Assembly (NCBI RefSeq): GCF_023897065.1
Contig: NZ_JAMHIV010000021.1
Location: 124,001 to 188,000, forward strand
Source: Crossiella sp. SN42
GTDB lineage: Bacteria; Actinomycetota; Actinomycetes; Mycobacteriales; Pseudonocardiaceae
Direction of reading: 5' to 3'
Length of the DNA: 64,000 bases
Under the pieces are notes generated by a model, which made no database searches, was not told the DNA's origin, and saw nothing but the letters and a program-made list of their open reading frames with translations. Shown one piece after another: positions 35,704 to 46,010 of the stretch. Each line of letters opens with the position of its first letter. Position 1 is the stretch's first letter. The translations under genes and the position numbers were made by a program.

Positions 35704-35719
35704 AATGGTCTAAACCATT
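35704..35719. promoter_or_regulatory. DasR-responsive element (dre) at nagA
   Basis: AATGGTCTAAACCATT has the dre core TGGTCTARACCA seen in DasR operators (consensus near AGTGGTCTAGACCACT). It directly abuts the nagA ribosome site (GGAGGG), so bound DasR would block expression. A dasR gene is at 45258. Confidence 0.8.
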
Positions 35720-36993: not shown

Positions 36994-37036
36994 TATGCCC
37001 GGACCGGCCTGACCCGGCATCATGACTGGCATGAGA

Positions 37037-37053
37037 GTAGGCTCCAAGCCTAC
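37037..37053. promoter_or_regulatory. Inverted repeat before the AbiE pair, candidate AbiEi operator
   Basis: GTAGGCT-CCA-AGCCTAC is perfect and ends 13 bases before the AbiEi start, next to its ribosome site. AbiEi antitoxins are known to repress their own promoters by binding inverted repeats. Confidence 0.55.
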
Positions 37054-37066
37054 GGAGGTGCCACTC

Positions 37067-37711
37067 ATGAGTAGGCGACAACCGGGTCGACTGCCATCAC
37101 GGCTACTCCGCCGCCCGCTGCGCCTCCTCCGGCCCCAGGACGCGGCAGAGAGCTACACGAACCCTCGCGCGGAGTTTGTCCGCCTTGCCAAGGCGGGAGT
37201 CCTGCACCGGGTGGCGACGGGTTACTACGTGCCGGTCCCCGATGATCACCTCGACCGTGCGTGGCTGCCAGAGCTGGAGTCCGTGGCACTGGGCACCGCG
37301 GCAGCCGACGAGGGAATCGGCACCGTCGCCCTGATGGGACTGAGTGCCGCGCGGATACACGGAGCCCTGCCGCGTGCGGTCGGGGTGGCCGTGGTCGCGG
37401 CGTCCCGCCACCGGGCGCCGCTGAGACTGGCCGACCGTGACGCGACTGTCCTTTATGTACGGCGTGACGTCTCACGGATCGACGTCGAGCGCCGTGACCT
37501 CGAACTGGGACAGGGCTGGGTGACCACGGCCGAGCAGACCGTGCTGGACCTGGCCGCCCGTCCCGAACTGGGCGGTTTGCCTGCCGAGGCCCGGGAAGCG
37601 ATCCGTGGGTTGCTGCCGATGACCGATCGGCAACTGTTGGCCGAACTGGCCGCCGCGCAACGACGGCGCGCCACCCTGACCCGACTGCTCAGGGAGACCG
37701 GCAGTGCTTGA
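37067..37711 (+). CDS. Type IV toxin-antitoxin, AbiEi-family antitoxin
   Basis: The 214-residue product has an N-terminal winged helix (about residues 25-65: NPRAEFVRLAKAGVLHRVATG and on to YYVPVP), followed by the AbiEi domain with MGLSAARIHGALPR and TTAEQTVLDLAARP. AbiEi neutralises AbiEii without touching it and represses the operon. The ATG at 37067 has CGGAGG about 8 bases upstream; in-frame ATGs at 37022 and 37031 would cover the inverted repeat. Its stop overlaps the toxin start by 8 bp. The pair lies between nagA and an unrelated gene, as an inserted cassette would. Confidence 0.82.
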   Translation: MSRRQPGRLPSRLLRRPLRLLRPQDAAESYTNPRAEFVRLAKAGVLHRVATGYYVPVPDDHLDRAWLPELESVALGTAAADEGIGTVALMGLSAARIHGALPRAVGVAVVAASRHRAPLRLADRDATVLYVRRDVSRIDVERRDLELGQGWVTTAEQTVLDLAARPELGGLPAEAREAIRGLLPMTDRQLLAELAAAQRRRATLTRLLRETGSA

Positions 37712-38462
37712 TCCGGACGAGGAGTTCGGGGTCGCCCAGCGGTTCGGCGTCGCGCGCGCCCAGGTGCGCCGCGACCACCTGATCTCGCACCTGCTCGCCG
37801 CGCTCAGCGAACACGTCGCCGAGCAGGTTGTCTTCTTCGGCGGCACCGCCCTCTCCCGGAGTTTTGTGCCAGAAGGACGATTGTCCGAGGACATCGACCT
37901 GATCGCGGTCGGACGTCGGCGCGATGTCGTCAGCGCGGTGGAGCAATGCCTGGTGCGGGGAACACGTCGCGAGTACCCCGGACTTCGCTGGCGACAACGG
38001 CTCAGCGAGGTGCGTGATGTCGAGCCCGCCCTGCTGACCGCCCCGGACGGCACGACCGTTCGTGTGCAACTGCTCAACCCGGTCGGATACCCGGCATGGC
38101 CGACCGCGCCGAGAGCGCTTGACCAGCGCTATTCAGACGCACCGCCGGCGACACTCGTCATACCCGCACTCGAGTCGTTCGTCGCGTGGAAAACCGTCGC
38201 CTGGCTGGACCGCGCCGCATCCCGTGACCTGTACGACCTGTGGTCGCTGGCCCGTCTCGGCGCGATCGACCACAACTCCGCGACTCTGTTCGCCCGCCAT
38301 GGACCGACGAACAAACCACCGGCCCCCGCGATGTTCGCCACCGCACCCGAAGAGGCCGAGTGGCGCCGGGATCTCAGCGAACAGACCCAGCTCCACGTCA
38401 CGGCCGCCGAAGCGCTGGCCACGGTCCGCGACGCCTGGCGTGACGCGGTCACGACCAGCTGA
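37704..38462 (+). CDS. Type IV toxin-antitoxin, AbiEii nucleotidyltransferase-like toxin
   Basis: The 252-residue product has the nucleotidyltransferase signature FFGGTALSRSF near residue 50 and SEDIDLIAVG near 67 (the DxD metal pair), and later ESFVAWKTVAWLDRAASRDLYDL, the conserved Lys and Asp/Tyr block of AbiEii. AbiEii-type toxins are nucleotidyltransferases; some modify tRNA acceptor ends and stop growth, as in phage defence by abortive infection. The GTG start lies inside the antitoxin gene. Confidence 0.85.
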   Translation: MLDPDEEFGVAQRFGVARAQVRRDHLISHLLAALSEHVAEQVVFFGGTALSRSFVPEGRLSEDIDLIAVGRRRDVVSAVEQCLVRGTRREYPGLRWRQRLSEVRDVEPALLTAPDGTTVRVQLLNPVGYPAWPTAPRALDQRYSDAPPATLVIPALESFVAWKTVAWLDRAASRDLYDLWSLARLGAIDHNSATLFARHGPTNKPPAPAMFATAPEEAEWRRDLSEQTQLHVTAAEALATVRDAWRDAVTTS

Positions 38463-39389: not shown

Positions 39390-39425
39390 AACGCGGCGCA
39401 CCCCCAGCCGGGGATGCGCCGCGTT
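39390..39425 (-). terminator. Terminator-like hairpin at the end of the das operon
   Basis: AACGCGGCGCA (39390-39400) pairs exactly with TGCGCCGCGTT (39415-39425), and CCCC/GGGG pair inside. It lies 10 bases past the stop of the SIS-domain gene. Confidence 0.65.
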
Positions 39426-39434
39426 CTCGGGTGT

Positions 39435-40484
39435 TCAGCGGGTCTTCGTGACCTTGTTCAGCCCGCGCGGGTTGTCCGGGTCCCCGCCCCGCGCCAGCGC
39501 CAGGCCCAGCGCGAGCCGCTGCACCGGCAGGATCTCCAGCACCGGGGCCAGCTCCTCCGCGGTGGCCGGCACCCCGATCCGGTAAGCCGCCGCGACCACA
39601 TCGGCCGCCGAGCCGACCGCGAGGATGTCCGCGCCCCGGCCCTGCACGACCTCCAGCACCTCGCGCATGGCCGCGCCGCCCTGGCCCGCGCTGGTGATGG
39701 CCAGCACCGCGGTCTCGCTGTCGACCGCGGCGACCGGGCCGTGCAGCAGGTCGGCGCCGCTGTAGGCCCGTGCGGACAGGTAGCTGGTCTCGGCGAGTTT
39801 GAGGGCGGCCTCGGCGGCGGTGGCCGAGGAGTAGCCGCGGCCGGTGGTGACCACGCGGTTGGCGAAGCGGTAGCGCTGGACGGCCTCGGCGACCGCGGGT
39901 TCGGCCAGGGCGAGCGCCGAGTCGGCCAGGTCGCCCAGGTTGGCCGCGTGTTCGGCGGTGCCGCCGCGGACGGCGTCGATGAGCAGGTACAGGGCCAGCA
40001 GGGTGGCGCTGTAGGTCTTGGTGGCGGCCACCGCGAGCTCCTTGCCCGCGCCGATGTCCACCGAGAGCTCGGTGACCTGGTTCAGCGGGGAGTCCGGGGT
40101 GTTGGTGACGGCCACGGTGAGCGCGCCCCGCCTGCGCGCGGCCTCGGTGGCCTCGACCAGGTCGGGGGAGCCGCCGCTCTGGCTGACCGAGACCCACAGC
40201 ACGTCGGTCAGGTCCGGCTGGGCGCCGTAGAGCGTGGTGGTGGACGGGGACACCAGGCCGGCGGGCAGCTGGAGCAGGACCTCGGTCAGGTACTTGGCGT
40301 AGAGCGCGCCGTGGTCGCTGGAACCGCGGGCGGCGAAGAGCACGAACCGCGGGCGGCGCTCGGCGATCTGCGCGGCCACCGCGGCGATCTCCGCCCGCCG
40401 GGCCAGCAGGCCCCGGAACACCTCGGGCTGGGCCGCGATCTCGGCGGCCATGTGCGCGCCGGGCACGGTCTCTGTCGACGTCAT
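39435..40484 (-). CDS. SIS-domain glucosamine-6-phosphate deaminase/isomerase (GlmS C-domain type)
   Basis: The 349-residue product has two SIS domains: FAARGSSDHGALYAKY near residue 55, SVSQSGGSPDLVEA near 100, KTYSATLLALYLL, then TTGRGYSSATAAEAALKLAE near 210 and the C-terminal NPRGLNKVTKTR typical of GlmS-like isomerases and NagB-II deaminases. It lacks the glutaminase domain of GlmS, so it probably deaminates GlcN-6-phosphate made by NagA. It is the last gene after the GH3 enzyme (ATGA overlap), with GGAGG upstream. Two DasR-type sites lie 100-150 bases upstream, inside the GH3 gene. Confidence 0.85.
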   Translation of the reverse strand: MTSTETVPGAHMAAEIAAQPEVFRGLLARRAEIAAVAAQIAERRPRFVLFAARGSSDHGALYAKYLTEVLLQLPAGLVSPSTTTLYGAQPDLTDVLWVSVSQSGGSPDLVEATEAARRRGALTVAVTNTPDSPLNQVTELSVDIGAGKELAVAATKTYSATLLALYLLIDAVRGGTAEHAANLGDLADSALALAEPAVAEAVQRYRFANRVVTTGRGYSSATAAEAALKLAETSYLSARAYSGADLLHGPVAAVDSETAVLAITSAGQGGAAMREVLEVVQGRGADILAVGSAADVVAAAYRIGVPATAEELAPVLEILPVQRLALGLALARGGDPDNPRGLNKVTKTR

Positions 40485-41932
40485 CGCCTGTCCTCCCTCG
40501 CCGTGTTCGCGGCGAGCAGCTCGGCGGCGGCGCGCAGGCACACGTACGCGCTGCCGTGGGTGTCGATACGGGCGACGCTGCCCAGGTCCGGACCAGGCAC
40601 CCCCGTCTCGACGTGCACTAGGTCTAGACCAATGCTAGCAAGTTCGACGACAAGTCGCCGCACTTCAGCGTGCCGGTGCGCGTCCCTGGTGACAACCACC
40701 ACCGGGGAACCGTGCGCTGAACCGAGGATTTCGTCCCGGCCATCCGGGCCTGGCCGCAGCACCCGGGTGCCCGGCAGCAGCTCGCTCAGGTGCGGGCCCA
40801 GGCCCCAGGGCACCGCGCCGACCGCGATGCTCGGGTCCACCTCCAGGTCCACCACCAGCGGCGGCCCGGCCAGCTTCAGCTCCCCGCGCACCTCGACCGC
40901 CCGCCGCGCGGCCCGCAGCCCGAGGTCGCCATCCGGCACCGGACCGCCGGTGACCGGGCCACCCAGTGACGCCGCCCGCGCCGCGGCCCCGGCCAGCAGC
41001 TCCTCGCTCAACCGTCCACTGTGGACAGCCGCCACGATCGCCTCGGCCAGCCGGTCCACCACCTCGGCGTCGGCCAGCTCGCCGCCCACGCACAGCAGGT
41101 CCGCGCCGGCCAGCAGCGCCTGCACCGCGCCGTCGCTGATCCCGGCGGTGCCGGAGACCGCGTTCATCTCCAGCGCGTCAGTGACCACCGCGCCGGTGAA
41201 GCCCAGCTCGCCGCGCAGCACCTCGGTCACCGCGTGCCGGTTCAGCGTGGCAGGCGACTCGCCCCAGGCCGGGATCACCAGGTGGCCGGTCATCACCGAG
41301 CGCACCCCGGCGGCGATCGCGGCCCGGAACGGCACCAGCTCGACCGTGCGCAACTGCTCCTCGGTCCGGTCCAGCACCGGCAGCTCGCGGTGCGAGTCCG
41401 CGGTGGAGGCGCCGTGGCCGGGGAAGTGCTTGGCGCAGGCGGCCACCCCGGACTGCTGGATGCCCGCGATGAACGCGGCCACCTGGGCCGCGGCCGCGTG
41501 CGGCTCGCGGCCGAAGGCGCGCACGCCGATGATCGGGTCCGCCGCGGCCAGGGTCAGGTCCGCGCAGGGCGCCAGGTCCAGGGTCACCCCGCAGGCGGCC
41601 AGCCTGGCCCCGAGCGCCGCGCCGACCTCCCTGGTCAGCTCGAGGTCGCCGATCGCACCCAGCGCGTGCGGACCCGGCAGCGCGGAGCCGCGCGCGGCGT
41701 CCAGCCGGGTCACGTCGCCGCTCTCCTCGTCGATGGCCACCACCACTTCGGGCCGCTCGGCCCGAAGGGACGCGCTCAGCGCGGCCACCTGCTCGTCGTC
41801 CACCACGTTGCGGCCGAACAGCAGCACGCCGCCGAGGCCGTCAGCGACCCGGCGGCGCACCCAGTCCGGCGCGCTCGTCCCGGCGAACCCCGGCAGCAGC
41901 ACGGCGTCGGCCAAGCGTCGCAGACCATCCAC
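40481..41932 (-). CDS. dasD: GH3 beta-N-acetylglucosaminidase
   Basis: The 483-residue product has the NagZ-type GH3 features: VVAIDEESGDVTRLD near residue 65, KHFPGHGASTADSH near 167-180 (the His/Asp general acid dyad), and nucleophile Asp in VVTDALEMNAV near 249. A second, smaller domain follows. No signal peptide is seen, so it cleaves imported chitobiose or similar in the cytosol. The start is GTG at 41932 with AAGGGA upstream. It is downstream of dasABC, as dasD is in Streptomyces. The codons at 40619-40633 include two rare CTA Leu codons that create a DasR-type site. Confidence 0.88.
   Translation of the reverse strand: MDGLRRLADAVLLPGFAGTSAPDWVRRRVADGLGGVLLFGRNVVDDEQVAALSASLRAERPEVVVAIDEESGDVTRLDAARGSALPGPHALGAIGDLELTREVGAALGARLAACGVTLDLAPCADLTLAAADPIIGVRAFGREPHAAAAQVAAFIAGIQQSGVAACAKHFPGHGASTADSHRELPVLDRTEEQLRTVELVPFRAAIAAGVRSVMTGHLVIPAWGESPATLNRHAVTEVLRGELGFTGAVVTDALEMNAVSGTAGISDGAVQALLAGADLLCVGGELADAEVVDRLAEAIVAAVHSGRLSEELLAGAAARAASLGGPVTGGPVPDGDLGLRAARRAVEVRGELKLAGPPLVVDLEVDPSIAVGAVPWGLGPHLSELLPGTRVLRPGPDGRDEILGSAHGSPVVVVTRDAHRHAEVRRLVVELASIGLDLVHVETGVPGPDLGSVARIDTHGSAYVCLRAAAELLAANTAREDRR
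40582..40597. promoter_or_regulatory. Possible DasR element inside the GH3 gene
   Basis: CCAGGTCCGGACCAGG contains a perfect GGTCCGGACC palindrome like the core of the second dasA site. It uses ordinary codons, so coincidence is possible. Confidence 0.4.
40618..40633. promoter_or_regulatory. DasR-responsive element inside the GH3 gene
   Basis: CTAGGTCTAGACCAAT carries the perfect dre core GGTCTAGACC, 134 bases upstream of the SIS-domain gene. In frame it reads ATT GGT CTA GAC CTA GTG; two rare CTA codons so close suggest selection for the site. Confidence 0.65.
41014..41026. repeat. Iterated palindrome GTCCACTGTGGAC (copy in GH3 gene)
   Basis: Exact copy of the 13-base palindrome with T at the centre, within coding sequence. 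Confidence 0.6.
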
Positions 41933-41938
41933 TGTGGA
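41928..41938. repeat. Iterated palindrome core TCCACTGTGGA at the GH3 start
   Basis: The 11-base core of the motif spans the start codon of the GH3 gene (41930-41932). Confidence 0.5.
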
Positions 41939-42772
41939 CTATCCCTTCACGGCGCCGGCGGTGTTCCCGGCCACCAGGTTGCGCTGGACGATCAGGAAGT
42001 AGATGAGCACGGGCAGCGCGAAGACCACCGAGGCGGCCATGGTGCCGCCCCAGTCGGTGCCGAAGACGGTGCTGAACGTGGACAGCCACACCGGCAGCGT
42101 CTGGTTGCTCTGGTCCCGCATCAGCACCAGGGCGAAGAGGAACTCGTTCCAGGCGGTGATGAAGGAGAACACCGAGGTGCTCACCAGCGCCGGTCCCAGC
42201 AGCGGCAGGGTGACCCGGCGGAAGGCGCCCCAGCGGGAGCAGCCGTCCACCATGGCCGCCTCCTCCAGGTCCACCGGGATGCCGTTGACGAAGCCACGCA
42301 GCGTCCAGATGGTGAACGGCAGCGTGGTGGCCACGTTGACCAGCAGCAGCGCGGGCAGCATGTTGAGCAGGCCGACATCGCGCATCAGCAGGTACATCGG
42401 GATCAGCAGCGCCTCCAGCGGCGCCAGCTGCGCGATCAGCACCAGCAGCACAAAACCCTTGCGGCCGCGGAAACGCAGGCGGCACAACGGGATCGCGGCC
42501 AGGATGCCCGCGGCCACCGCGCACAGCATGGCGCCGACGGCCACGATCAGGCTGTTGGTGAGGAAGTTGGTGAAGCCCGGCCTGGTCACCGCGGTGACGA
42601 AGTTGTCGAAGGTGACCGAGGTCGGGAACAGGTCGTAGTCGGTGGTCAGGTTCGAGTTCGTCGGCCGCAGGGACGAGTTGATCATCCAGTAGGTCGGGAA
42701 GAAGAACAGCCCGGCCAGCAGCAGCGCGACCCCGGTCAGCAGGGTCCGCTGCGCACGGTTCTTGGTCCTCAC
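41939..42772 (-). CDS. dasC: Chitobiose-type ABC transporter permease 2
   Basis: The 277-residue product has six membrane helices and the EAA loop DLEEAAMVDGCSRWGAFRRV near residue 175. It is the MalG-type partner of DasB. GTGA overlap with dasB (42769-42772) fixes the GTG start; the longer open frame to 43288 is a shadow. The GH3 gene starts 6 bases after its stop. No ATPase gene is present, so a shared ATPase such as MsiK must energise it. Confidence 0.87.
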   Translation of the reverse strand: MRTKNRAQRTLLTGVALLLAGLFFFPTYWMINSSLRPTNSNLTTDYDLFPTSVTFDNFVTAVTRPGFTNFLTNSLIVAVGAMLCAVAAGILAAIPLCRLRFRGRKGFVLLVLIAQLAPLEALLIPMYLLMRDVGLLNMLPALLLVNVATTLPFTIWTLRGFVNGIPVDLEEAAMVDGCSRWGAFRRVTLPLLGPALVSTSVFSFITAWNEFLFALVLMRDQSNQTLPVWLSTFSTVFGTDWGGTMAASVVFALPVLIYFLIVQRNLVAGNTAGAVKG

Positions 42773-43752
42773 AGCGCACCCTCCTGACGCCGGATGAGCA
42801 GTCGCATGTACTGCCCGACCAGCACGGTCAGCACCAGGATCATCAGCACCGCGACCGCGGCGGCCACACCGAAGTGGCTGCCGGAGATGCCCTTGATGTA
42901 CTGCAGCACCGACAGCGTGGTGCTCTCCCCGTCCGGGCCGCCCTGCCGGATCGCCCAGACCTGGGTGAACACCTTGAAGTCCCACAGGATCGACTGGAAG
43001 GTGGCCAGGCCGACCATCGGCGCCAGCGCGGGCCAGGTGACCGCGCGGAAGCCCTGCCAGCCCGAGGCGCCGTCGATGCCGGCCGCCTCGTACAGGTCGC
43101 CGGGGATGGACAGCAGCCCCGCGTACAGGGTGAAGGCGATGAACGGCACCCCCTGCCAGATGATCAGCAGCGCGATCACGGTCAGCGTGGAGGCCCCGGA
43201 GGAGAACCAGGAGAAGCCCTGGAAGGAGTCGAAGCCGATCAGCACCAGGGTCTTGTTCAGGATGCCGAAGTTCTGGTCGAAGATCCACTGGAACACCGTG
43301 GTGGCGGCCAGGATGGGCATCGCCCAGGCCAGCACCAGGCTGATCTGCAGCACCAGCCGGACCACCGGCCCGATCTGGCGCATCAGCAGCGCGATCAGCA
43401 GGCCGACCCCGACGGTGCCCACCACGCAGGCCGTGGTGAAGGCCACCGTGCGCAGGGTGATCAGCCAGAACTCGGGGTCGCCGAGGACCTCCGCGTAGTT
43501 GTCGAAGCCGTTCCAGACCACCTCGCCGCGCACCAGCTCGCCCAGGTCGAGCTTGCGGAAGCTGATCAGGATGACCTGGATCGCCGGCCAGCCCAGCAGG
43601 ACCAGCAGCGCGATGATCGCGGGCGCGATCAGCAGGTAGGGCAACAGGGTGTCGCCGAGTGAGCGCCGGCGCGCACGCCGACCGGGTCCATCCGCAGACG
43701 GTGCCGGCGGGGTCGCCCCCGCCGGCACCGTGGTGTCCACTGTCGCGGTCAT
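42769..43752 (-). CDS. dasB: Chitobiose-type ABC transporter permease 1
   Basis: The 327-residue product has a cytoplasmic Pro/Arg-rich tail, six membrane helices and the EAA motif LYEAAGIDGASGWQGFRAV near residue 225. It is the MalF-type CUT1 permease paired with DasC. It starts 4 bases after the dasA stop and lies in the conserved dasABC-dasD order next to dasR. Confidence 0.87.
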   Translation of the reverse strand: MTATVDTTVPAGATPPAPSADGPGRRARRRSLGDTLLPYLLIAPAIIALLVLLGWPAIQVILISFRKLDLGELVRGEVVWNGFDNYAEVLGDPEFWLITLRTVAFTTACVVGTVGVGLLIALLMRQIGPVVRLVLQISLVLAWAMPILAATTVFQWIFDQNFGILNKTLVLIGFDSFQGFSWFSSGASTLTVIALLIIWQGVPFIAFTLYAGLLSIPGDLYEAAGIDGASGWQGFRAVTWPALAPMVGLATFQSILWDFKVFTQVWAIRQGGPDGESTTLSVLQYIKGISGSHFGVAAAVAVLMILVLTVLVGQYMRLLIRRQEGAL

Positions 43753-43756
43753 CGCG

Positions 43757-45034
43757 CTACTTGCCCGCGAGCGCCTGCTGGATCGCCGTGTTCGCGTCCG
43801 CGGTGGCCTGGTCCAGGGTCTTCGCCCCGGTCAGGTACGCGGTCATCATGGTCTTGATCGGGTTCGCCCCCGCCTCCACCGAGCCCCAGTTCGGGCTGGC
43901 CGGGACCGCCTTGCCGTTGACCGCGGCCTTGGCCATCGCGGCCGAGACCGGGTCGCTGTTGAGCGCGCTGGTGTCCTTGGTCGAGCCGGGGATCATGCCG
44001 GCCTTGACCAGCTGCTGCTGGTACTTCTCCGTGGCGAGCAGCTTCAGGTAGTCCTTGGCCAGGTCGGCGTTCTTGCTGCCGGCCGGGATGGCCAGGTTGG
44101 ACCCGCCCTGGAACACCGGCGTGGTGCTGCCGGGGGCCTTGCCGGGAATGGGGAACCCACTGGTCAGCTTGGTCATCTCGGGGTTCTCCTTGGCCGCGGT
44201 GGCGACCTCCCACGGCAGGCCGACGATCATGCCGACCTTGCCCTTGCCGTACACGCCTGCCTGCGGGGGCTTCTCCTCGTCGGCGTCCTTGGGCGCCTTG
44301 GTGCCGGAGACCTCCACCAGCTTCTTGTAGAACTCCAGCCCGGCCTTGGCCTCGGGGGTGTTCAGCGTGGCGGTGAACTTGGTGCCCTCCTGCTTGGCCA
44401 CGTCACCGCCCTCGCCCCAGATGAAGGACAGCAGGGTGTACCAGTTCTGGCCGGCCAGGTAGAGCGGCTGGAACTCGGGGTCGTCCTTGTGCGCGGCCTT
44501 GAGCTTCTCGATCGCGGTCAGCCACTCGGCCTGCGAGGAAGGCGGGGTGATGCCTGCCTTCTCGAACAGGTCCTTGCGGTAGAGCACCAGCCGGTTGGCC
44601 GCGTAGAACGGCACCGCGAACTGCTTGCCGTCCCAGGTGCCGGAGGCCTTCAGGCCCTCGCTCCAGTTCGCCCCGCCCAGGCCGGCCGCGTCCGCGGTCA
44701 GGTCGGTGAGCACCTTCTGCTCAGCGAACTTCGGGGACTGGGTGTTGCCGATCTCGAGCACGTCCGGCGGGTTGGTGCCGGCCAGCGCGGTGTTCAGCTT
44801 GTCCTGGATGCCAGTCCACTGCTGGATCTCGTACTTGACCTTGACGCCCGGGTGGGCCGCCTCGAACTCCTTGTGCATCTCGTCGGTCAGCGTCGTCGGC
44901 GCGGAGCCGCTCATCAGCCACACGACGAGTTCCTTGCTGCTTCCCTGGCCCGAGCCTGAGCCCGAGCCCGCACAACCGGAGACCGTCAGTGCTGCTGCCA
45001 CAGCACTCACGGCTACCTTTGTCCAGCGCTTCAC
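43757..45034 (-). CDS. dasA: Chitobiose-type sugar-binding lipoprotein
   Basis: The 425-residue product has a lipoprotein signal (lipobox VSGC near residue 21), a Gly/Ser linker and a type 1 binding domain (ELVVWLMSGSAPTTLTDEMH, NPPDVLEIGNTQSPKFAEQ). In Streptomyces DasA binds N,N'-diacetylchitobiose. The start is a GTG at 45034. Two DasR operators lie 57 and 81 bases upstream in the gap shared with dasR, as expected for this operon. It should be induced by chitin breakdown products through release of DasR. Confidence 0.88.
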   Translation of the reverse strand: MKRWTKVAVSAVAAALTVSGCAGSGSGSGQGSSKELVVWLMSGSAPTTLTDEMHKEFEAAHPGVKVKYEIQQWTGIQDKLNTALAGTNPPDVLEIGNTQSPKFAEQKVLTDLTADAAGLGGANWSEGLKASGTWDGKQFAVPFYAANRLVLYRKDLFEKAGITPPSSQAEWLTAIEKLKAAHKDDPEFQPLYLAGQNWYTLLSFIWGEGGDVAKQEGTKFTATLNTPEAKAGLEFYKKLVEVSGTKAPKDADEEKPPQAGVYGKGKVGMIVGLPWEVATAAKENPEMTKLTSGFPIPGKAPGSTTPVFQGGSNLAIPAGSKNADLAKDYLKLLATEKYQQQLVKAGMIPGSTKDTSALNSDPVSAAMAKAAVNGKAVPASPNWGSVEAGANPIKTMMTAYLTGAKTLDQATADANTAIQQALAGK

Positions 45035-45090
45035 CGTTGCCGCCCTTCTTCAGCCCGGTCAGACCGTGTCACGCTGGCCGGGCGCGCTGA

Positions 45091-45106
45091 AGTGGTGTAG
45101 ACCAAT
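45091..45106. promoter_or_regulatory. DasR-responsive element 1 at dasA
   Basis: AGTGGTGTAGACCAAT is one base off the dre core TGGTCTAGACCA. It lies between dasA and dasR. Confidence 0.8.
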
Positions 45107-45114
45107 GCGCTGAG

Positions 45115-45130
45115 AGTGGTCCGGACCACA
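45115..45130. promoter_or_regulatory. DasR-responsive element 2 at dasA
   Basis: AGTGGTCCGGACCACA contains the perfect 14 bp palindrome GTGGTCCGGACCAC. It is 24 bases from the first site, suggesting binding on the same face of the helix by two dimers. Confidence 0.82.
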
Positions 45131-45257
45131 TGTCCTGTCAAGACAGTTGCGAAGACGTTGTAAAGACGTTCCGAGGGCTGGGCGGCGCCGTTGTCCGACC
45201 TACCGGCATGCTGAACCACTAGAAAGGTATGGGGGCGCCAATGCCGAGGAGGAGGAC

Positions 45258-46010
45258 ATGCTGGACGTGACGTCGGCTGAGGCGGGCGTGAACCCGCGCA
45301 CCCAGCGGGAGCCGAAGTACTGGGGACTGAAGCGACATCTGCTCGATCTGCTGCGCTCGCTCCCGCCGGGCTCGCCGATCCCGACCGAGCGCTCGCTGGC
45401 CGCGGACTTCGACGTGTCCCGGACCACGGTTCGGCAAGCGCTTGCCGAGCTGACCGTGGAGGGCAGGCTGCTCAGGGTGCAGGGCAAAGGCACCTTCGCG
45501 GCCGCGCCGAAGGTGGCTCAGCGGTTGCAGCTGAGCTCCTACACCGAGGACATGCGGGCCCAGGGCCGCCAGCCGGCCTCCAGGCTGCTGGAGGCCAGCG
45601 AACAGCCCGCCGAGGCGGAGCTGGCGAGGTTGCTCGGGGTCCGGCCGGGGGCCAAGGTGCTCCGGCTGCGGCGGCTCCGGCTGGCTGATGGCGAGCCGAT
45701 GGCCATCGAGCTGACCCACCTCGCGCTGGGCCGCTTCCGTGGCCTGCGCCGCTACATCGGCGCAGGTGGATCGCTGTACCAGGTGCTGCGCGAGCGCTTC
45801 GGCGTGGAGATGGGGCACGCGGACGAGACCATCGAGACCGCGCTGGCCACCCCGGAGGAGGCGGAGCTGCTCGGCGCCGACATCGGCCTGCCGATGCTGC
45901 TGCTGTCCCGGCACTCCTTCGACACCGACGGCAAGCCGGTGGAGTGGGTGCGTTCGATCTACCGGGGCGACCGGTACAAGTTCGTCGCCCGGTTGAACCC
46001 TCCTGGTTGA
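45258..46010 (+). CDS. dasR: GntR/HutC-family global regulator DasR
   Basis: The 250-residue product follows the DasR sequence closely: [20 protein letters not shown] at residues about 18-37, [20 protein letters not shown] (winged helix), [27 protein letters not shown], and the UTRA domain ending [20 protein letters not shown]. DasR represses chitin and aminosugar genes and is released by GlcN-6-phosphate; in Streptomyces it also links nutrition to development and antibiotics. The ATG at 45258 has AGGAGGAGG upstream. It is divergent from dasA, the conserved arrangement. Confidence 0.93.

Follow-up and report, generated by a model that had tools for sequence, protein, structure and literature searches.

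A predicted DasR-repressed promoter within the 3' end of a GH3 gene, ahead of a SIS-domain gene, in Crossiella sp. SN42

The 3' end of a dasD-like GH3 gene in Crossiella sp. SN42 is predicted, from sequence comparison, to be an intragenic promoter that is repressed by DasR and serves the SIS-domain gene downstream, and this reading is considered probable. The DNA analyzed, referred to here as the window, is a stretch of 64,000 nt, and all positions follow its numbering (Table 1). It contains a das-type locus in which dasR lies on the plus strand and the divergent dasA, dasB, dasC, GH3 and SIS genes all lie on the minus strand; the das gene names are assigned by analogy. The GH3 protein scores 203.3 bits against NCBIfam NF003740 (cut-off 207). 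The SIS protein matches PDB 8eol (E 1.2e-42) and resembles the NagB-II SIS-type deaminase (NF046059; PDB 8eol) over nearly its whole length, but it scores only 200.4 bits against the curated NF046059 family, under the cut-off of 430, and is for this reason labelled NagB-II-like only. The stop of the GH3 gene overlaps the start of the SIS gene. Between nagA and the das operon, at 37022-38462, a probable type IV toxin-antitoxin pair is encoded by an AbiEii gene and a gene that is AbiEi-like (23.7 bits, cut-off 22.2).

Table 1. Features of the das-type locus and of the predicted intragenic element, in window numbering.
Feature	Position	Strand	Basis
GH3 gene, dasD-like, beta-N-acetylhexosaminidase-like; harbours the element	40481..41932	-	Pfam PF00933, E 9.3e-71
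SIS-domain gene, NagB-II-like glucosamine-6-phosphate deaminase; proposed promoter target	39435..40484	-	Pfam PF01380
DasR orthologue gene, divergent from dasA; start codon provisional	45237..46007	+	best PDB match S. coelicolor DasR 4zs8, E 6.8e-95
Predicted DasR operator (dre) core GGTCTAGACC, GH3 codons 435-438 (G-L-D-L)	40621..40630	-	sequence and orthologue comparison
-10-like box TANNNT, here TAGCAT; one base separates it from the operator downstream	40632..40637	-	orthologue comparison
Hexamer GCGGCG at the -35 position, 18 nt ahead of the -10 box; doubtful	40656..40661	-	alignment
Second palindrome GGTCCGGACC, GH3 codons 447-450 (G-P-D-L); doubtful as operator	40585..40594	-	sequence
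Shine-Dalgarno-like GGGAGGAC ahead of the SIS ATG	40490..40497	-	sequence; role inferred
dre of the dasA promoter, TGGTCTACACCA	45093..45104	-	motif match
Second dre at dasA, TGGTCCGGACCA	45117-45128	as listed with the dasA dre	motif match
dre-like site before nagA, TGGTCTAAACCA	35706..35717	+	motif match

The initial annotation had reported a palindrome with a perfect dre core at 40618-40633 within a dasD-like gene. CTAGGTCTAGACCAAT is indeed found there on the plus strand, and on the minus strand the GH3 frame reads ATT GGT CTA GAC CTA GTG, as had been claimed. The distance of 134 bases given for the SIS gene is recovered when counted from 40618 to the SIS start at 40484; the core GGTCTAGACC itself sits 137 nt ahead of that start. 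This core is exact, and the whole site has one mismatch to the 12-mer TGGTCTAGACCA, which, with its core, we take to be the dre consensus; a DasR orthologue is encoded in the same window. The CTA leucine codons are as rare as had been stated, with 4 among the 506 Leu codons of 11 window genes, two of them in this site. The same genes have ATT at 2 of 133 Ile codons, and one of those two is at the site. Third-position GC content (GC3) of GH3 codons 418-438 is 0.48, compared with a gene mean of 0.92, and is the lowest of any 21-codon window in the gene (tied windows start at 418-422).

GH3 orthologues with and without a neighboring SIS gene were compared. A search of 200 family genomes gave GH3 relatives in 195, and the top 82 places by score (L005-L086), one of them the window's own, were used. 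At a threshold of at least 55% identity 64 orthologues were retained: 39 in which a SIS gene of the same orientation lies at most 400 nt from GH3 (SIS+) and 25 without (SIS-). The 18 rows left out before counting (L069, a truncated match, and L070-L086, below 55% identity) all lack the core, GGTCTAAACC and GGTCTGGACC forms in GH3, and only L069 has a SIS gene downstream. Expectation was set by shuffling synonymous codons within each gene 2000 times, a procedure that ignores shared ancestry; the 39 SIS+ rows include near relatives (five of the window's own genus with the window counted, nine of genus g8 and eight of g21), and genus counts and a tree answer this problem only in part. Rows in the 39-row shuffle tests were not selected by operator.

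The exact core is present in 22 of the 39 SIS+ orthologues, in eight genera, against a shuffle mean of 0.09 and a maximum of 2. Four further SIS+ rows, three of g22 and one of g17, carry it with one mismatch. Counted as at least nine of ten bases, the operator occurs in 10 of 13 SIS+ genera and is absent from g8, g7 and g43. No core was found in the GH3 gene of any of the 25 SIS- orthologues. The alignment of dasD homologues that had been suggested as a check thus finds the dre core kept beyond synonymous expectation, in shuffles that ignore ancestry, and the comparison supports both a DasR-type operator, as predicted from sequence, and the proposed local link to the downstream SIS gene.

A -10-like box was noticed in the alignment first and tested afterwards. 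TANNNT stands at this position in 32/39 SIS+ rows (mean 1.40 and maximum 6 in 2000 synonymous shuffles, ancestry ignored) and in 0/25 SIS- rows, 14 of which are ungapped here and 11 gapped. It is found in 10 of 13 SIS+ genera and is missing from g12, g7, g43 and two of the nine g8 rows. The box crosses a codon border: the last base of codon 432 is T in 33/39 rows, which encode A, V, G or T there, and the first base of codon 433 is A in 32/39, with S, K, N, R or T as the encoded residue. The TA of these two codons falls outside the 12-mer. TANNNT, ATT at codon 434 and at least nine of ten operator bases occur together in 25/39 rows (mean 0.02 and maximum 1 in 2000 shuffles). In order, the conserved unit consists of a hexamer at the -35 position, 18 nt, TANNNT, one base and the operator.

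The -35 position is less clear. TCGCGA, TCGACA or TCGCCA occupies it in 23/39 SIS+ rows, a set of hexamers chosen after inspection, and the window's genus has GCGGCG or GCGACA. The final base of codon 424, which lies here, is T in 24/39 rows (1000 shuffles: mean 1.86, maximum 7). A TTGACA-like hexamer, taken as at least four of six bases, was seen in only 8/39 rows (shuffle mean 1.85, maximum 7), and a sigma-70 scan of 39400-45300 found no promoter.

Neighboring operators were examined with a dre-like site defined as one that differs from the 12-mer at two positions or fewer. In all 13 SIS+ regions, from 11 genera other than the window's (g34, g32, g2, g22, g21, g17, three of g8, g11, g29, g7 and g43; the g12 contig is too short), dasR lies beside dasA. 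Ahead of dasA, a dre-like site is present in these 13 regions, in the window and in three SIS- regions, and in 14 of the 17 it follows CAT. For this reason the ATT of codon 434 may be operator flank as much as -10. At nagA, the first base of TGGTCTAAACCA is the last T of CATAAT, and the 10-bp core comes directly after CATAAT. In the three SIS- regions, L134, L135 and L136 (g16, g27 and g45), dasR was not found beside dasA in the stretch examined and the dre-like site is kept.

A GH3 tree was built from 48 of the 64 rows, with SIS- genera thinned to three rows each, on approximately the first 425 residues, so that the site region was excluded. With a midpoint root, site-bearing rows lie on either side of the deepest split, and SIS- rows cluster with site-bearing g1 (the window's own genus) and g34; some branches are long, including those of g12, g7 and g29. 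The SIS- rows belong to three genera, g16, g27 and g45, and because these may be one group the tie between SIS gene and site rests on few events. In the simplest reading of the sequences, the element would be old; it would have gone together with the SIS gene in g16, g27 and g45, been lost as well in g7 and g43, and in g8 have lost only its operator. Among the SIS- genera, g45 has dre-like sites 35-126 nt past the GH3 stop in five of seven rows (L038, L042, L050, L054 and L068). In L042 and L054, the two of these loci that were scanned, the next gene encodes a CBM2-containing GH18 chitinase, and a GH18 gene likewise follows GH3 in L051, a g45 row without the dre-like site.

Genus g8 is informative about function. 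Seven of its nine rows have TANNNT and none has the operator, although two rows, L039 (the deepest) and L020, retain eight of ten operator bases; in the three g8 regions examined, dasR and the dre-like site at dasA are retained. Because g8 has the -10-like box without the operator, a promoter rather than a roadblock is argued to be the basic function. Repressors on DNA are able to stall RNA polymerase, and the operator does lie on the route of read-through transcription, so that DasR bound within GH3 might simply halt transcripts coming from the dasA promoter, with no start point here. Because a dre also sits at the dasA promoter itself, such a roadblock would act mainly at low incoming transcription. 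The roadblock, which the initial annotation had offered as one role for DasR, is not preferred and appears unlikely: a -10-like box outside the operator is part of what is conserved, and g8 keeps this box without an operator despite its dasR and dasA sites.

The same genus has a separate peculiarity. In seven of nine g8 rows (L019, L020, L023, L027, L030, L031 and L039) a TTA leucine codon, the sole TTA of each GH3 gene, stands at aligned codon 431, directly before the -10-like box. TTA codons are bldA-dependent in streptomycetes, and the g8 promoter sequence might thus place GH3 translation under the bldA tRNA.

Codon choice around the site is equally unusual in the orthologues. ATT is found at codon 434 in 25/39 SIS+ rows (2000 synonymous shuffles: mean 2.32, maximum 8), and these are all of the 25 SIS+ rows with Ile there. 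In the 22 site-bearing genes, codon surprisal, averaged per codon over seven-codon windows (sd 0.45), peaks at 3.25 bits in the one that starts at codon 430, with the values at codons 435-438 being circular because these genes were selected by operator. The peak in g8 is in the seven codons from 428 (2.99), whereas in SIS- genes windows at this place reach 0.34 and the maximum lies elsewhere. The stretch of lowest GC3 begins at codons 410-440 in 32/39 SIS+ genes as compared to 1/25 SIS- genes. In a plain nucleotide scan for excess conservation across 26 rows, the stretch with the site is 20th among 1429 and one starting 2 nt earlier is 4th. Pairwise codon identity, scanned along GH3, left the site outside its top 12, since by that measure an invariant ATT column scores little above an invariant ATC column.

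Rare codons of this kind could slow ribosomes ahead of the SIS start, and the peptide IGLDL, which is common among SIS+ rows, could itself be what is selected; the motif after it, VETGxPG, is common to SIS+ and SIS- rows. A translational pause or a protein motif is nevertheless an improbable substitute for selection on DNA. Specific letters are kept and not rarity alone, the conserved letters at codons 432 and 433 span a codon border despite varying residues, and IGLDL is not retained in SIS- orthologues. The orthologue comparison supports the earlier suggestion of selection for the DNA site over codon preference.

The bare motif is not rare. The genome contains 17 copies of GGTCTAGACC and likewise 17 of the reversed control, so motif counts show no excess over chance; it is conservation that exceeds chance. 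Similarly, in a phylum sample TANNATTGGTCTAGACC occurs in 2/396 genomes, as does its reversed control. The two are the window's own and G231, where the match lies in a 2.1-kb locus without a GH3 match, and among the rows listed there is no further genome of the window's family. A scan for TANNATTGGTCTAGACCTNGTG of the genome_contigs collection (84,980 species, from which records of or near the window's genome were possibly excluded) gave 17 places, 16 of them inside a GH3 orthologue. A SIS gene is seen downstream in 15 of these 16, and the remaining locus, L100, ends before that point. The records belong to Saccharothrix (10, one of them a MAG), Allokutzneria (2), and Crossiella, Solihabitans, Umezawaea and Goodfellowiella (1 each). 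The 17th place, L103, is from a MAG named only as Actinomycetes and has neither GH3 nor SIS. Simulations described in the available part of PMC6397444 argue that many intragenic sites may come from drift, and the equal counts of motif and control would fit such an origin. A chance look-alike is very unlikely here, since 10 of 13 sampled SIS+ genera have the site, exact or with one mismatch, at this one position, far above synonymous shuffles.

The second palindrome is doubtful as an operator. The gap between the two cores is 26 bases and not the 31 first reported. GGTCCGGACC is exact in 10/39 SIS+ rows (shuffle mean 2.92, maximum 10) and has at least nine of ten bases in 25 (mean 21.05, maximum 28), and GGT is used at codon 447 in 19/39 (mean 5.76, maximum 13). 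It is not retained within the window's own genus, and its exact form only equals the shuffle maximum, so the plural in the description of operators is not supported. In the RNA fold of lowest energy the first palindrome pairs with the second, as an attenuator or coupling hairpin in the GH3-SIS message would have it, but such an RNA element is highly improbable given a fold energy no better than that of shuffles (z 0.09, no extra stability) and the poor conservation of the second palindrome.

The intragenic promoter remains the preferred reading, and we infer the transcription start, DasR binding, the effect on deaminase level and the physiology as follows. RNA polymerase would use the TANNNT box (TAGCAT here) with the hexamer 18 nt upstream, so that the 3' end of GH3 would double as promoter-operator for the SIS (NagB-II-like) gene. 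DasR on GGTCTAGACC would cover the expected start, at about 40625, and exclude the polymerase. When GlcN-6P or GlcNAc-6P rises, DasR would leave the operator, and the resulting message would have a leader of approximately 140 nt with its own Shine-Dalgarno sequence. This would supply extra deaminase on top of dasABC-dasD read-through. Selection on the DNA of the element would force the very rare codons and probably also part of the peptide IGLDL.

Regulatory DNA within coding sequence that serves an operon is familiar from the E. coli trp internal promoter and lac O2. Unlike these, promoter and operator here stand together and seemingly shape residues and codons in many genera. In Streptomyces, GlcN-6P and GlcNAc-6P release DasR, according to the part of PMC12680351 available, and in S. 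erythraea GlcNAc genes including nagB-II are repressed by DasR, according to that of PMC11076491. The dre sites of the Streptomyces and Saccharopolyspora GlcNAc regulon share with the present site the kind of core, a DasR orthologue and amino-sugar genes. In contrast to them, the present site is locked within the coding sequence, and into the codons, of another gene, with its proposed target starting 137 nt downstream. DasR also binds inside genes, cpk and cda, in S. coelicolor, as given in the accessible portion of PMC4398421. The likeness is in intragenic position; those are antibiotic synthase genes, with a conserved promoter unmentioned in that portion, whereas here a putative site and a -10-like box are conserved across genera. 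The titles and abstract openings surveyed on DasR and on intragenic or internal promoters, mostly from outside subscription journals, make no mention of such an element.

Taken jointly, the promoter-operator may have dictated IGLDL and its codons ever since the sampled GH3-SIS lineages had a common ancestor, with the peptide drifting after SIS loss in g16, g27 and g45 and the g8 promoter outliving its operator, thereby freeing the deaminase from DasR there; the chances that this full account holds are judged even. Intragenic operator matches are often dismissed as drift, and sequence comparison separates this one from drift, with natural controls in orthologues that lack the target gene and in a genus that has the -10 without the operator. 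If the proposal is true, the deaminase that removes GlcN-6P, one of the DasR signals, would have a private, DasR-switched supply, which would be a feedback point in the GlcNAc cascade, a cascade tied to antibiotic production in related bacteria. Regulatory DNA would then also fix amino acids of an enzyme, and caution would be called for when das operon genes are recoded or replaced.
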